This document shows, in pieces, positions 41,690 to 46,794 of a DNA stretch of 64,000 bases. The stretch spans positions 62,001 to 126,000 of the forward strand of contig NZ_QORW01000012.1 in the NCBI RefSeq assembly GCF_003574735.1, given 5' to 3'. The notes beneath the pieces are model-generated. The model was not told the origin of the DNA, did not search any database, and worked only from the letters and a program-made list of their open reading frames with translations. The translations under genes were made by a program, and so were the position numbers. Every line of letters begins with the position of its first letter. Position 1 is the stretch's first letter. The DNA is from Dongia deserti. GTDB taxonomy: Bacteria; Pseudomonadota; Alphaproteobacteria; Dongiales; Dongiaceae.

Positions 41690-42929
41690 AGCGCAGCGCC
41701 TCCACCGGATCGAGCCGCGCGGCACGCCAGGCCGGGTAGAGCGAGGCCAGCAGCGTCAGTACCAGCGCCATGATCACGATCAGCGTCACTTCCACCGGGT
41801 CCACGATCGCCGGCAGCTTCGACAAGAAGTAGATCGTCTCGTTGAACAACGGCACGCCGGTCAACCCTTCCAGCCAGCGGCGGATGGTCTCGATATTGTC
41901 AGCGAACGCAGTGCCGAGCAGGCAGCCGAGGAACGTGCCGATCACGCCGATGCTGGCGCCGGACAGCAGGAACACCCGCAGGATCGCGCCGCGCGTTGCG
42001 CCCATGGTGCGCATGATGGCGATGTTCCGCCCCTTTTCCTTCACCAGCATGATCTGCCCGGAGATGATATTGAACGCGGCGACGATGATGATGAGGGTGA
42101 GGATGAGGAACATCACGTTCCGCTCCACCTCGACTGCGCCGAACAGATCGGCATTCAGCGCCTGCCAATCCGTGAGGCGGAATCCGGCCCCGAGCGTCTT
42201 GGCGAGCTCCCGCTTGACCAGTCCGACATCCTCGATGTTGTTGACCATCACTTCCATGGCGCTCGCGGCACTCTTTTGCTGGAAGTAGAGCTGTGCCGCC
42301 TCGAGCGGGATGAAGGCGAAAGACGCGTTGTATTGCGACATGCCGACATCGAAGATGGCGACCACGCGGAACTCCTTGATGCGCGGGATCGTGCCCATCA
42401 TGGTGGCCTGCGTCTTCGAAGAGATCGCCTTGAACTCCGATCCGACGGTGAGGCCGAGATTGCGGGCCATGCCGACGCCGATCATCGCGGCGTCCTCGCC
42501 CTTGAAGTCGTCGAGCGAGCCTTCGATCACGCCGTTCGCGATCAAGGTGCGATTGCGCAGATCCTCCGCCCTGTAGCCGCGCATATAGGCGCCGTTGCCC
42601 ACGCCGTTGGCGGATATGAACACTTCGCCGTCGATCATCGGCGCGACGCTCTGCACGCCCGGCAAACCCTTCACCCGATCGACGATCTCCTGATAGTTCT
42701 TGAGCGGCCCCTGCATGGAGTTGATGGTGATGTGGCTCTGCACGCCGAGGATGCGGCCAAGCAGCTCGGCTCGGAAGCCGTTCATCACGCTCATGACCAC
42801 GATCAGCGTGCCGACGCCGAGCGCGATACCCAGCAGCGAGAAGCCAGCGATGACGGAGACGAAGCCCTCCTCGCGGCGCGCGCGCAGATAGCGGAAGGCG
42901 ACGAGGCGTTCGAACGCGGAAAAGATCAT
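41682..42929 (-). CDS. lolC: Lipoprotein-releasing ABC transporter permease (LolC/LolE)
   Basis: This 415-residue MacB-fold permease has one N-terminal membrane segment, a large periplasmic domain (about residues 50-265) and three C-terminal spans. [23 protein letters not shown] and the final [18 protein letters not shown] are family hallmarks. Only one permease is present, as usual in alphaproteobacteria, so it likely homodimerises with LolD. It overlaps proS by 4 bases (ATGA at 42926-42929). Confidence 0.93.
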
Positions 42930-44254
42930 GCGCCCAGCCGCTCGAGCGCCGCGTCGACGCTGAGCTCGACCTTCTCGCCCGTCTTGCGGTTCTTCATCTC
43001 GACCAGGCCCTTGGCCGCGCCGCGCGGGCCGACCACGAACTGCCAGGGCAAGCCGATCAGGTCCATCTCCGCAAACTTGGCACCGGCGCGCTCGTCGCGA
43101 TCATCATAGAGCACCTCGACGTTCGCGTTCCTGAGCTTGGCGTAGATGTCCTCGCACATCCGGGTCGCGGCAGCGTCGTCGACCTTGATGTTGATCAGCC
43201 CGACCTTGAACGGCGCCACGCTCTCCGGCCAGACGATGCCGTTCTCGTCATGGCTGGCCTCGATGATGGCTGCCGGCATGCGCGAGACGCCGATGCCGTA
43301 GGAGCCCATGTGGACGGTGAGCGGATTGCCGTCCTTGTCCTGCACCTGTGCCTTCAGCGGCTCCGAATACTTGGTGCCGAAATAGAAGATATGGCCCACT
43401 TCGATACCGCGCCCGACATACCGCTGCCCCGCATCGGCCACCTCCTTCTCGAATGCCGACTGGTCGTGCTTTTCATCGGTGCGCGCGTAGAGCGACGTGA
43501 AGTGTTTCACCACGCCTTCCACCTCGGAAGGATTCTCGTAGTTGATGTCCTTGCCGAGCACGTCGTAGTCCAGGAACTTGCGGTCGCAATAGACCTGGCT
43601 CTCGCCGGTGTCGGCCAGGACGATGAACTCGTGGCTGAGATTGCCGCCGATCGGCCCGGTTTCCGCTTCCATCGGAATCGCGTGCATGCCCATGCGCGCG
43701 AAGGTGCGCAGATAGGCGACGAAGAACTTGTTGTAGGAGCGCTTGGCACCCTCGTAATCCATGTCGAAGGAATAGGCGTCCTTCATCAGGAACTCGCGCC
43801 CACGCATCACGCCGAAGCGTGGCCGCACCTCGTCACGGAACTTCCACTGAATGTGATAGAGCATCTTCGGCACATAGCGATACGACTTGATCGAATCGCG
43901 GAAGATCTGCGTGATCTGCTCTTCGTTGGTTGGGCCGTAGAGCATCTCGCGGTCGCGCCGGTCCTTGATGCGCAGCATCTCCTTGCCGTAGGCATCGTAG
44001 CGGCCGGACTCCTTCCAAAGGTCGGCCGACTGGATGGTCGGCATCAGCACCTCCTGGCAGCCGGCGCGGTCCTGCTCTTCCCGCACGATCTGCTCGACCT
44101 TCTTCAGCACCTTGAAGCCGAGCGGCAGCCACGAATAGATGCCCGCGCTCGCCTGGCGGATCATGCCGGCGCGCAGCATCAGACGATGCGAGACGATCTC
44201 GGCCTCGGCTGGATTTTCCCGGAGGGTGGGCAGGAAGAACTGGGATGAACGCAT
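42926..44254 (-). CDS. proS: Prolyl-tRNA synthetase (short alphaproteobacterial type)
   Basis: This class II synthetase charges tRNA-Pro. At 442 residues it lacks the roughly 180-residue insertion (editing) domain of E. coli ProRS, as expected in alphaproteobacteria. Motifs seen are [56 protein letters not shown] and the anticodon-binding domain with the [14 protein letters not shown] segment. It is the first gene of the proS-lolC-lolD unit. The 168 bases upstream contain its promoter region and the boundary to the A+T-rich island. Confidence 0.96.
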
Positions 44255-44422
44255 CTGGCCTCGCTAACGGCGCCTTTGAGAATTAACAGGAATCCGGGCG
44301 GAATTTAGGCAAACGGCGCTGCCCTGTCCACGAGTTATGCTTCGAAATTTAGTGTCTTCCTGAAGCGCGCTCTGGTTGTATAGTTTTTAGCGTTGCACGT
44401 TGCTCAATCGCAAGGGTCTCAA

Positions 44423-45049
44423 ATGTCTGTTACTGTCAGGCCAGATACTGCTAAGCGGGACTACTCCGGCGCCATCGCGGACCTTGTAAAAGCAATTGCT
44501 GCAGCCGGGATGACGGCGTTTACCGCCGACACCATTACTGCCGGACAAGCAATTGCAGCTGCGGTACCGCGTCTAATCGACATGACTCTTGCACTCACGA
44601 AAAGGAAAGACATCCCGCTCGGTGCTACAGTATGGACCCTGATAAGAGCGGCGTACGTCGCTAGTCTTACTAGGTTTTTGGGTAATGCTGAACTTGCTCG
44701 TCGGCCGAAGGGCAAGGAATTGGAAACCCTTGTCGCAAGTTTGCTGCAGCGGATCGACATACTTGCAGACCAATCACCGCAAGTAATATCGGCGGATTGC
44801 CTTCAGTCACCTCTGAAGATAGCGGTGCTCCGCGATGCGGCAAGCCAAATTCCTCACGAACTAAAGCCATTCAATCCAAAGATGAGTCCAACCGAACTCC
44901 GGAAGAAGTTCGAGTCGAACCTCTTTGAGGGATTGGCGGATGTTAGAGACCGCCAGCCAGATGAGTTTCGGAAGCTGGAGGACTCTCTTTCCGGCCCTCT
45001 GTCGCTAGAAATCGATCGCCGCAAAGCCAAGGTCAGACACCATGAATAA
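44423..45049 (+). CDS. Uncharacterised protein, first gene of a two-gene accessory module
   Basis: I do not recognise this 208-residue protein. It is soluble and mostly helical by composition, with a hydrophobic amphipathic stretch around residues 15-60 (AIADLVKAIAAAGMTAF...AIAAAVPRLIDMTL) but no clear signal or membrane anchor. The C-terminal third is charged and may be a coiled coil. The ATG at 44423 follows AAGGG, and a TTG ten codons upstream is less likely. Codon use is visibly more A+T-rich than in neighbouring proS and rnj. It overlaps the pentapeptide-repeat gene by 8 bases, so the two products are made together. Confidence 0.65.
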   Translation: MSVTVRPDTAKRDYSGAIADLVKAIAAAGMTAFTADTITAGQAIAAAVPRLIDMTLALTKRKDIPLGATVWTLIRAAYVASLTRFLGNAELARRPKGKELETLVASLLQRIDILADQSPQVISADCLQSPLKIAVLRDAASQIPHELKPFNPKMSPTELRKKFESNLFEGLADVRDRQPDEFRKLEDSLSGPLSLEIDRRKAKVRHHE

Positions 45050-46337
45050 TCTATTGGCAGAAATGGTGTGCTGCTACAGGTTTAGACAGCGAAGCTTTGA
45101 GCTTCTCCGAATTGCCCACCACGGGCCACTCACTAATGAGATCCATCGGTTCTTTTCCGATGAAGTCCGACTTCGATTCAATGGCTGGAGGAACGCGCGA
45201 AATCAGCTTGAAGGTCAAGTCGTCCCCTTGGTCAACTGGGTTCTGAAGAATGGCATGCCTGTACACCGCGTCCTCTCTGCTGCGGATGAGACACCTTTTG
45301 TCGTTTATGATCGCGCTGAGCGGCGCGCTACAGATGTATTGTGGGCTTTCTTCCAGGATTTAGCAGATCAAAGCTTTCAGGCAGGGAGCTTTCGCAAGCA
45401 AACGGCGGGCGGATGGCAGTCAGGGCCCGTTTCGCTGCAGTGGCCAGCAATAAGCAGCTTCTCCTCTCTACTCTTTAGGCTATGCGATCATACTCACGCT
45501 GCCAACACAGGGCGTATTGCAACTTTCAACTACCTTGATCTACGAAACCAAGATGTAAGCGCCTTGAACAACCGCACTATTCTGTCTCTGAGATCGCCGA
45601 GAAGCAGCTCGCCTACAATGTGGCTTGAGCTTTCACTTGGGGCTGTCAACCTGAGCGGCACACGGTTGTTTAGCGCAAGTCTGCAGGGTGTCAATTTGGC
45701 AAGGTCAGATCTCAGTGGAGCGCGCCTTGGCCGCTCCGACTTAAGCGGCGCAAGTCTTGAGGAGTCTGATCTACGTGAGGCCGACTTAACACTGGCGAAG
45801 TTGGAAAGCGCAAACCTAATCAAAGCCGACCTCTCAGGCGCCAACCTAAGTGGTGCTTGGATTGCTGGAGCAAGACTCAATCATGCGAAACTTGCGAAGT
45901 GCAGGTTTTCCCCGTCGTTTCTCGTCTTGGTAACATTTCGAATGTCCGATGTATCGCGGGTCGCATACTTTAGAAGAACCGATCTGAGATCTGCCGACCT
46001 TCGAAATGCGGATCTTAGTGAATGCGATTTCAAAAATTGCATACTTCATAATGCCTTTCTCTCTGCAGCAAACTTAAGCAATTCGAACCTGGCATTAGCT
46101 TCGACGACCAAGACGCATTTTTCTGACGCGAATATCGCCGGAGCCCAAATACCTAAGTCTACCTTGAGCTCTGCGAATTTCTCTGAAAGCCAAATTGCTC
46201 AAGCTTTGATCTTGGACGAATCAGCAGTTGAGGAGCAGCGTAAGCAGCTCAGAAAATCAATGAACGATGAGATTGAGAGATTTCCTTTGAGGAATGTTTC
46301 CGTCCTAACCATAAGCGACGAAGAGGTATTTGCTTGA
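45042..46337 (+). CDS. Pentapeptide-repeat protein with N-terminal domain of unknown type
   Basis: In this 431-residue protein, residues 1 to about 160 form a Trp/Arg/Phe-rich globular domain I cannot place. Residues about 197-390 are tandem pentapeptide repeats of A(D/N)LxX type (for example SDLSGARLGRSDLSGASLEE and SADLRNADLSECDF), interrupted near 285-312. Such repeats fold as a right-handed quadrilateral beta-helix, which can mimic DNA (as in gyrase protectors) or serve as a scaffold. There is no ATPase, nuclease or membrane motif. It overlaps the upstream gene by 8 bases and is A+T-rich like it, consistent with joint horizontal acquisition. Confidence 0.75.
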   Translation: MNNLLAEMVCCYRFRQRSFELLRIAHHGPLTNEIHRFFSDEVRLRFNGWRNARNQLEGQVVPLVNWVLKNGMPVHRVLSAADETPFVVYDRAERRATDVLWAFFQDLADQSFQAGSFRKQTAGGWQSGPVSLQWPAISSFSSLLFRLCDHTHAANTGRIATFNYLDLRNQDVSALNNRTILSLRSPRSSSPTMWLELSLGAVNLSGTRLFSASLQGVNLARSDLSGARLGRSDLSGASLEESDLREADLTLAKLESANLIKADLSGANLSGAWIAGARLNHAKLAKCRFSPSFLVLVTFRMSDVSRVAYFRRTDLRSADLRNADLSECDFKNCILHNAFLSAANLSNSNLALASTTKTHFSDANIAGAQIPKSTLSSANFSESQIAQALILDESAVEEQRKQLRKSMNDEIERFPLRNVSVLTISDEEVFA

Positions 46338-46383
46338 GTGAAGTCAGGACAACTTCCAAGAGGAGCAACGACCGGAACGAATT

Positions 46384-46794
46384 TCAGTCTGGCTCGCCCC
46401 GTTCCCGGCAAGCCTCTTCCAGGGCGGCGATCTCCGGGTCGGCCAGCACCTGGTCCTGGAAATAGACCTGATTGCCCCTGACCGAGACCACCCCGACCAG
46501 GGCAGTGGCGTCGTACAGCACCGAATTGGCGGGAATAGCGAATTTGTCCTGAATCAGCACTTCGATGGGGATATAGATCACGTCCGGCAGCTCGATCTGC
46601 GCACCGCCGCCGAGATCCGCCGGCATCACCGGCTGGCCGTGCACATCGACGCCCGGCTGATACGTGACGTCAGCCGCCGGTTCGTGCCGCACCAGCCGCT
46701 CGCAGTCTCGGCGCGAAATGGCGATCTCCGCGTTGGCCGGAAGGGCCCACGTGAGCGCCAATAGGACCAGTGCGATGGATCCCGCTATCCGCAT
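46384..46794 (-). CDS. Small secreted protein of unknown function
   Basis: This 136-residue protein has a clear signal peptide (about 1-22, ANA-E cleavage), so it is probably periplasmic. The mature part holds two cysteines (in RRDCERL and EEACRERG) that could form a disulfide, and a central segment (IELPDVIYIPIEVLIQDKFAIPANSVLYDATALVG). I know no function. It is convergent with the pentapeptide gene (46-base gap) and upstream of nothing in its own direction except the island, so it may mark the right edge of the native backbone. Confidence 0.75.
   Translation of the reverse strand: MRIAGSIALVLLALTWALPANAEIAISRRDCERLVRHEPAADVTYQPGVDVHGQPVMPADLGGGAQIELPDVIYIPIEVLIQDKFAIPANSVLYDATALVGVVSVRGNQVYFQDQVLADPEIAALEEACRERGEPD

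Follow-up and report, generated by a model that had tools for sequence, protein, structure and literature searches.

A probable two-gene derivative, without NACHT, of a bacterial NLR-related protein in an acquired insert of Dongia deserti

Results

Two overlapping genes in the window, the 64,000-nucleotide stretch of Dongia deserti contig NZ_QORW01000012.1 analysed here as a whole, very probably form a NACHT-less derivative of a bacterial NLR-related protein with the architecture NNH3–NACHT–helical domain–pentapeptide arm. This assignment, made by sequence comparison, follows from two ends that are homologous to, and collinear with, those of intact relatives and from the absence of the NACHT: the part missing from the pair is the central NACHT and winged helix, ~400 residues in length. 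Because the pair has no NTPase, the defining feature of NLR-related proteins, we file it as a derivative rather than a member of that group. Its parts also lie in two frames with an 8-nt overlap and not in one polypeptide. The features of the locus are collected in Table 1.

Table 1 Positions of the insert, its genes and its flanks in the window
Feature	Position	Strand	Basis or remark
proS, left flank	42926–44254	-	
Low-GC insert in the interval between proS and the gene before rnj	44333–46395	.	2.06 kb; empty-site homology limits, composition
Gene 1, 208 aa, putative divergent NNH3 domain, probable effector-side end of an NLR-type protein	44423–45049	+	Pfam, L051 alignment, profile N7
Junction zone, place of the relatives' NACHT and winged-helix part, absent here	45004–45105	+	Homology ends of genes 1 and 2; other frames by eye
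AAGG resembling a Shine-Dalgarno sequence, 9 nt upstream of the gene-2 ATG	45029–45032	+	Read from the sequence, consensus match only
Gene 2, 431 aa, putative post-NACHT helical domain and pentapeptide arm, probable sensor-side end	45042–46337	+	
Gene-2 residues 22–170, counterpart of the domain that separates the NACHT module from the repeats in relatives	45105–45551	+	L051, L085, profile C6
Gene-2 residues ~196–390, pentapeptide repeats in two registers	45627–46211	+	PF00805, spacing count
Conserved gene before rnj, right flank	46384–46794	-	Last codons altered by the insert

An acquired insert between proS and the gene before rnj

Both genes are intact and lie on the plus strand, running from ATG to stop at 44423–45049 for gene 1 (218 aa if the in-frame TTG at 44393 were the start) and at 45042–46337 for gene 2, with an 8-nt overlap (ATGAATAA), as a preliminary description of this DNA had it. 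That description also noted a base composition unlike that of the flanks, which is borne out by a GC content in 500-base windows of 48–54% in the insert vs 58–70% in the scanned flanks, and by a GC3 of 0.53 in gene 1 and 0.51 in gene 2 vs 0.80–0.87 in four neighbouring genes. The label "A+T-rich" is true only relative to the host.

The proposed insertion point is likewise upheld by an empty site in two genomes of the same genus (L011 and L012). Homology to these sites ends on the left at 44332 (L011) or 44335 (L012) and restarts at 46396 or 46397, and 14 and 22 native bases stand in place of the insert at the two sites. Across the order, the gene before rnj, which has no Pfam match at E 1, is present in 16 of the 17 genomes, own genome counted; the one without a match (G001) is 68% complete. 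Among the 15 loci that the other genomes of the order provided, 14 have proS next to this gene (the exception being L021), and a match to gene 1 or gene 2 was found at none of the 15 (E 1e-5), so that the pair is not core. Within the genus, gene 1 is carried only by its own genome among the four examined. Taken together, the low GC and GC3, the empty sites, the absence from all 15 order loci and the restriction to one of four genus genomes lead us to conclude that the gene pair is an acquired insert.

The gene before rnj had its final codons altered by the insertion, at 46384–46395, and was parted by it from proS; an effect on proS expression is possible. A repeat search revealed no obvious terminal repeats of the insert, no recombinase gene was seen within it, and scans for promoters and terminators stayed at or below chance. 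The earlier reading as a compact mobile two-gene module stands as far as compactness and lateral acquisition are concerned.

Gene 1 and the NNH3 domain

Gene 1 had been described as matching nothing known, a statement that has to be revised. Its sole Pfam match is NNH3 (NACHT N-terminal helical domain 3, PF22735; E 1.3e-4), which scores 22.5 bits, below the curated cut-off of 27, and is missing from the reversed protein and from three shuffles; profiles built independently of Pfam later recovered the same domain (see below). PADLOC, NCBIfam and PHROGs returned nothing for gene 1 at E 1, and no housekeeping family was matched. When aligned to individual proteins, residues 27–194 of gene 1 paired with residues 27–190 of the NNH3 protein L051 (z 7.7, 0 of 300 shuffles); the comparison with L050 reached z 5.9, those with L047–L049 were weak or null (z 1.8–3.0), and that with L085 was null (z 0.5). 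The end of gene 1 falls inside the last NNH3 helix. A search of solved structures gave one match for gene 1, at E 1.8, and single-sequence AlphaFold2 yielded mean pLDDT values of 46 for gene 1 and 32 for gene 2, neither model being usable.

Gene 2: a post-NACHT-like domain and a pentapeptide arm

For gene 2, the layout first proposed, an N-terminal domain followed by pentapeptide repeats, was confirmed, with ~195 non-repeat residues preceding the repeats at ~196–390. PF00805 scores 107.7 bits. In the first repeat block (residues 199–304), a hydrophobic centre recurs every 5 residues, 22 in succession; the second (315–390), after a register break, has hydrophobic residues at 15 of its 16 centres. 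The structure search gave 27 matches for gene 2, all on the repeat part.

The length and regularity of the pentapeptide region, and its weak matches to the Qnr and MfpA models, could speak for a Qnr/MfpA-type protein, protecting gyrase by DNA mimicry with an accessory partner. We consider this highly improbable, since the scores (Qnr 46.4 bits vs a cut-off of 240; MfpA 42.8 vs 360), the net charge of about -1 over the repeat region and the separate N-terminal domain of NLR type all speak against it; the gyrase protection raised in the preliminary description thus finds no support.

The N-terminal part of gene 2 points instead to the region that follows NACHT in NLR-related proteins. Its residues 28–176 align to residues 649–787 of L051, just before the L051 repeats (z 6.6, 0 of 300 shuffles), and the comparison with L085 reached z 7.8, a likeness that can also be followed by eye (VNWVLKNGMPVHRV in gene 2 vs MDWTLTNGMPVHHL in L085). 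Values were lower for L047–L050 (z 0.3–2.4), and the comparison with a Skermanella half-gene was null (z 0.4).

Both ends probably belong to one architecture

The two ends were evaluated with profiles from which the window had been excluded: N7 for the NNH3 part (seven members) and C6 for the post-NACHT part (six members, repeats trimmed). The test set of 967 sequences consisted of 965 decoy ORFs and the two queries, and left out all ORFs of family loci, the insert's own two frames and loci repeating the window's insert. With N7, gene 1 ranked first of the 967 at 28.4 bits, the runner-up reaching 10.6; with C6, first place went to the gene-2 N-terminus at 36.5 bits, the runner-up reaching 4.0. 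NNH3 is therefore called in gene 1 by N7 and not by the Pfam cut-off, while the post-NACHT domain and the pentapeptide arm are both found in gene 2. The hhalign probability was only 61 for gene 1, and 96 for the gene-2 N-terminus. Since each end came first of 967, and in the right order, we take both to belong to one architecture.

Earlier versions of the profiles, with five and four members, had given 28.4 and 23.3 bits vs 4.2 and 8.5 for the best shuffles, among the 396, 381 and 431 out of 500 shuffles listed by hmmsearch in these controls. An untrimmed post-NACHT profile was confounded by its repeat columns: the 16 matches listed did not include the gene-2 N-terminus, and a plasmid pentapeptide protein (45.6 bits) outscored the full gene-2 frame (34.0 bits). 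Some pentapeptide proteins also reached 5–12 bits with an early post-NACHT profile.

These results bear directly on a further reading, namely that the pair is an unrelated two-gene defence or toxin-antitoxin-like module whose resemblance to NLR ends reflects convergence of helical sequence. Such a module would account for the NNH3 score below the curated Pfam cut-off, the low identity to relatives and the direct searches without an orthologue, but it is improbable given that each of two independent ends is recognised, at first rank and in the correct order, as part of the same architecture, that shuffle controls scored far lower, and that the gene-2 N-terminus alone had already picked a NACHT-pentapeptide protein (L027/L085). 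The classical toxin-antitoxin pair considered in the preliminary description is unsupported, as neither Pfam, PADLOC, NCBIfam nor PHROGs gave a match to one, and no known anti-phage family in PADLOC-DB was matched by gene 1 or gene 2 up to E 1.

The missing NACHT part

Pfam found no NACHT in gene 1 or gene 2, and neither NACHT nor winged helix was seen by eye in the other reading frames around the junction. Elsewhere in the same genome, ten NACHT-like matches were obtained (117 scored of 227 candidates); when these ten were scored with the family's own NACHT profile, none was a separated copy of the missing NACHT. The best reached 25.2 bits and belongs to a different, complete NACHT protein, and the others stayed at or below 10.3, vs 124.8 bits for the Skermanella half used as a reference. 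For comparison, Pfam NACHT scores fall below the cut-off (26.7) even in L051 (25.3) and L048 (24.0).

The same genome contains a separate complete 976-aa NACHT protein (L083:3441–6371, minus strand; G000:C3:48000–58000) with neither NNH3 nor pentapeptide repeats. Its gene lies in a block of ~54% GC, beside a 269-aa HNH-like ORF and a 193-aa ORF containing a membrane-like stretch, both read by eye. At another locus of the same order (L084:2678–5553, plus strand), a 214-aa ORF shares 4 nt with a 744-aa ORF whose NACHT match lies above the cut-off; with a GC of 47–49% in flanks of 65–68%, this is another two-gene low-GC insert.

Full-length and broken relatives

The founding paper on bNACHT proteins is reportedly that of Kibby et al. 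2023. Relatives of the present pair came mainly from five foreign NNH3 loci in the phylum search (L047–L051), all with open frames holding NNH3 and NACHT and four of the five also holding pentapeptide repeats. L051 (6759–9548, plus strand) is a complete NNH3-NACHT-pentapeptide gene with a GC of 0.48 within flanks of 0.66. Among the 199 genomes searched of its own family, its NNH3 part was found in L051 itself only; from this rarity and the low GC, L051 also looks like a lone inserted gene. The exception without repeats is L050 (6536–8113, minus strand), an NNH3-NACHT gene that ends at 525 aa with no pentapeptide match and no long open frame within the 700 bases read after it.

Two further relatives were recovered. 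L027 was the best foreign match of the gene-2 N-terminus used alone (E 0.0068, 299 phylum genomes), and its frame (L085) encodes a true relative, a 1062-aa NACHT-pentapeptide protein in which Pfam did not call NNH3 at E 0.05. On the Skermanella mucosa plasmid pSM-3 (L040:2359–6498), an NNH3-NACHT-pentapeptide gene is interrupted by an IS256 transposase gene; its NNH3-NACHT half scores 29.2 bits with NNH3, over the cut-off, and its pentapeptide half scores 82 bits with the post-NACHT profile.

Distribution

No second NACHT-less pair was found across our searches of genomes, plasmids, phages and viral contigs. For gene 1, none of 53 pattern matches in genome contigs was confirmed, and it was detected in its own genome only, both among 61 relatives and among the 17 genomes of the order. 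Six marginal matches in 385 class genomes (E 0.004–0.008) were treated as noise. Plasmids gave no gene 1 match at E 0.01 or at E 10, phages none at E 1, and viral contigs none that was confirmed. The gene-2 N-terminus was found in one of the 17 order genomes, its own, and in no plasmid, viral contig or genome contig; the three marginal foreign matches among 299 phylum genomes were L027, L028 and L029, the latter two with stops inside the match.

NNH3 itself is rare: in overlapping genome samples it was detected in 1 of 385 genomes of the class (own genome only) and in 6 of 398 of the phylum (the own genome and five others), each at E 0.001, and in 3 of 18 of one family. A further set of nine loci gave 2 of the 8 searched, including plasmid W07 at 14.3 bits. 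NLR queries revealed no relative in viral contigs, and in phages an NLR query matched repeats only, among the 15 matches listed of 456. Plasmids showed no match to the NNH3 or post-NACHT parts of L051, nor to the post-NACHT part of L085.

Small-gene and pentapeptide pairs of Nostoc and Bordetella plasmids and a CHAT-pentapeptide pair of Azospirillum were rejected as relatives; the partner genes of these pairs gave z 0.2–0.9 against gene 1, and their pentapeptide proteins z 0.1–1.1 against the gene-2 N-terminus. On an Azospirillum brasilense plasmid (L038:3001–11503, plus strand), genes for PAS, CHAT, pentapeptide, DUF4231 and TIR proteins stand in a row between IS genes, forming a conflict-type cluster with a pentapeptide gene.

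Discussion

Working pair or deletion remnant

For NLR-type receptors, the step from sensing to action is generally held to require the NTPase. That a pair of NLR descent could be active without it, as an NTP-independent sensor-effector pair rather than a remnant, is a plausible reading which we hold to be nearly, if not quite, probable. In favour of activity, both frames are open over ~640 codons, the repeats are regular, and the NNH3 score of gene 1 (22.5 bits) is similar to that of intact L051 (23.5). The gene-2 ATG moreover overlaps the gene-1 stop, with the Shine-Dalgarno-like AAGG 9 nt upstream. When out-of-frame deletions were simulated in three intact relatives, 18.5%, 4.1% and 1.3% of cases had an ATG between -15 and +20 nt relative to the stop, and 0.1%, 0.2% and 0.0% had such an ATG together with an SD-like 4-mer, figures that are only indicative as few independent start codons were available.

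Alternatively, an internal out-of-frame deletion may have removed the NACHT from an NNH3-NACHT-pentapeptide gene, either before this gene reached the genome or afterwards, leaving two open ends that persist without function. We regard this as almost equally likely. The NACHT-less pair is a single example, its genes lie in different frames as they would after a random deletion, gene 1 stops within the last NNH3 helix, and other genes of the family are broken (L050 at 525 aa; the Skermanella plasmid copy with its IS256 element). A functionless remnant is harder to reconcile with the long stop-free frames, the regular repeats and L051-like NNH3 score, and the coupled ATG and AAGG that were rare in the simulated deletions. 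In another defence protein, DS-8, defence was lost on mutation of a residue that is probably critical to the ATPase activity of its NACHT, according to the portion of the report consulted (PMC13092281), which counts against activity of a NACHT-less pair.

For bNACHT proteins, the sections available of one account describe a C-terminus that senses, a NACHT module that oligomerises and transmits, and an N-terminus that acts as effector (PMC12169576). If the pair is active, then gene 2, with its helical platform and pentapeptide arm, might serve as a sensor that binds the NNH3 chain of gene 1 and keeps it inactive. When the pentapeptide arm met an invader or damage signal and bound it, the NNH3 chains would be freed or clustered and in turn would arrest or kill the cell, the switch being set by binding and dose and not by NTP. 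The most far-reaching form of this proposal, a working two-chain NLR-descended receptor without NTPase in which NTP-driven oligomerisation would be dispensable, is put forward more tentatively, as a possibility that falls well below probable.

Either outcome would be informative. If the pair works, it represents a natural experiment parting sensor and effector from the switch, with each testable alone. If it is a remnant, an orphan-looking helical hypothetical and a pentapeptide gene can be the two ends of one NLR, and this may help the annotation of similar pairs elsewhere. No report of a NACHT-less bacterial pair was found in the parts of the open-licence literature that our search returned, nor was a paper on NNH3, or the NACHT N-terminal helical domain, found in the open-licence literature searched.

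Comparison with known systems

Several known systems share elements with the pair. Qnr and MfpA have pentapeptide repeats in common with gene 2, which differs from them in scoring far under the family cut-offs, in its extra N-terminal domain and in its near-neutral charge. Truncated plant NLRs such as TNx, as presented in the excerpts available (PMC9786959), resemble the pair as NLR-type proteins without part of the usual domain set; TNx is, however, a plant protein, and is likened here by description only. In split conflict systems, effector-associated domains, pentapeptide scaffolds and a STAND NTPase are encoded by separate genes, according to the passages available of two studies (PMC7159879, PMC8195603). 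Judging from the same passages, these systems resemble the pair in combining a helical or adaptor module with a pentapeptide scaffold in a multi-gene conflict locus, but they use TRADD-N, EAD1 and vWA modules and include the NTPase, and the likeness is one of description only (PMC7159879, PMC8195603). The bNACHT NNH3-NACHT-pentapeptide proteins (PF22735, PF05729, PF00805) have the NNH3, post-NACHT domain and pentapeptide arm in the same order as the pair, and their member L051 and the pair are alike in being a single low-GC insert between host genes. Whereas these proteins are one chain with a NACHT NTPase and winged helix, the pair consists of two chains without either.
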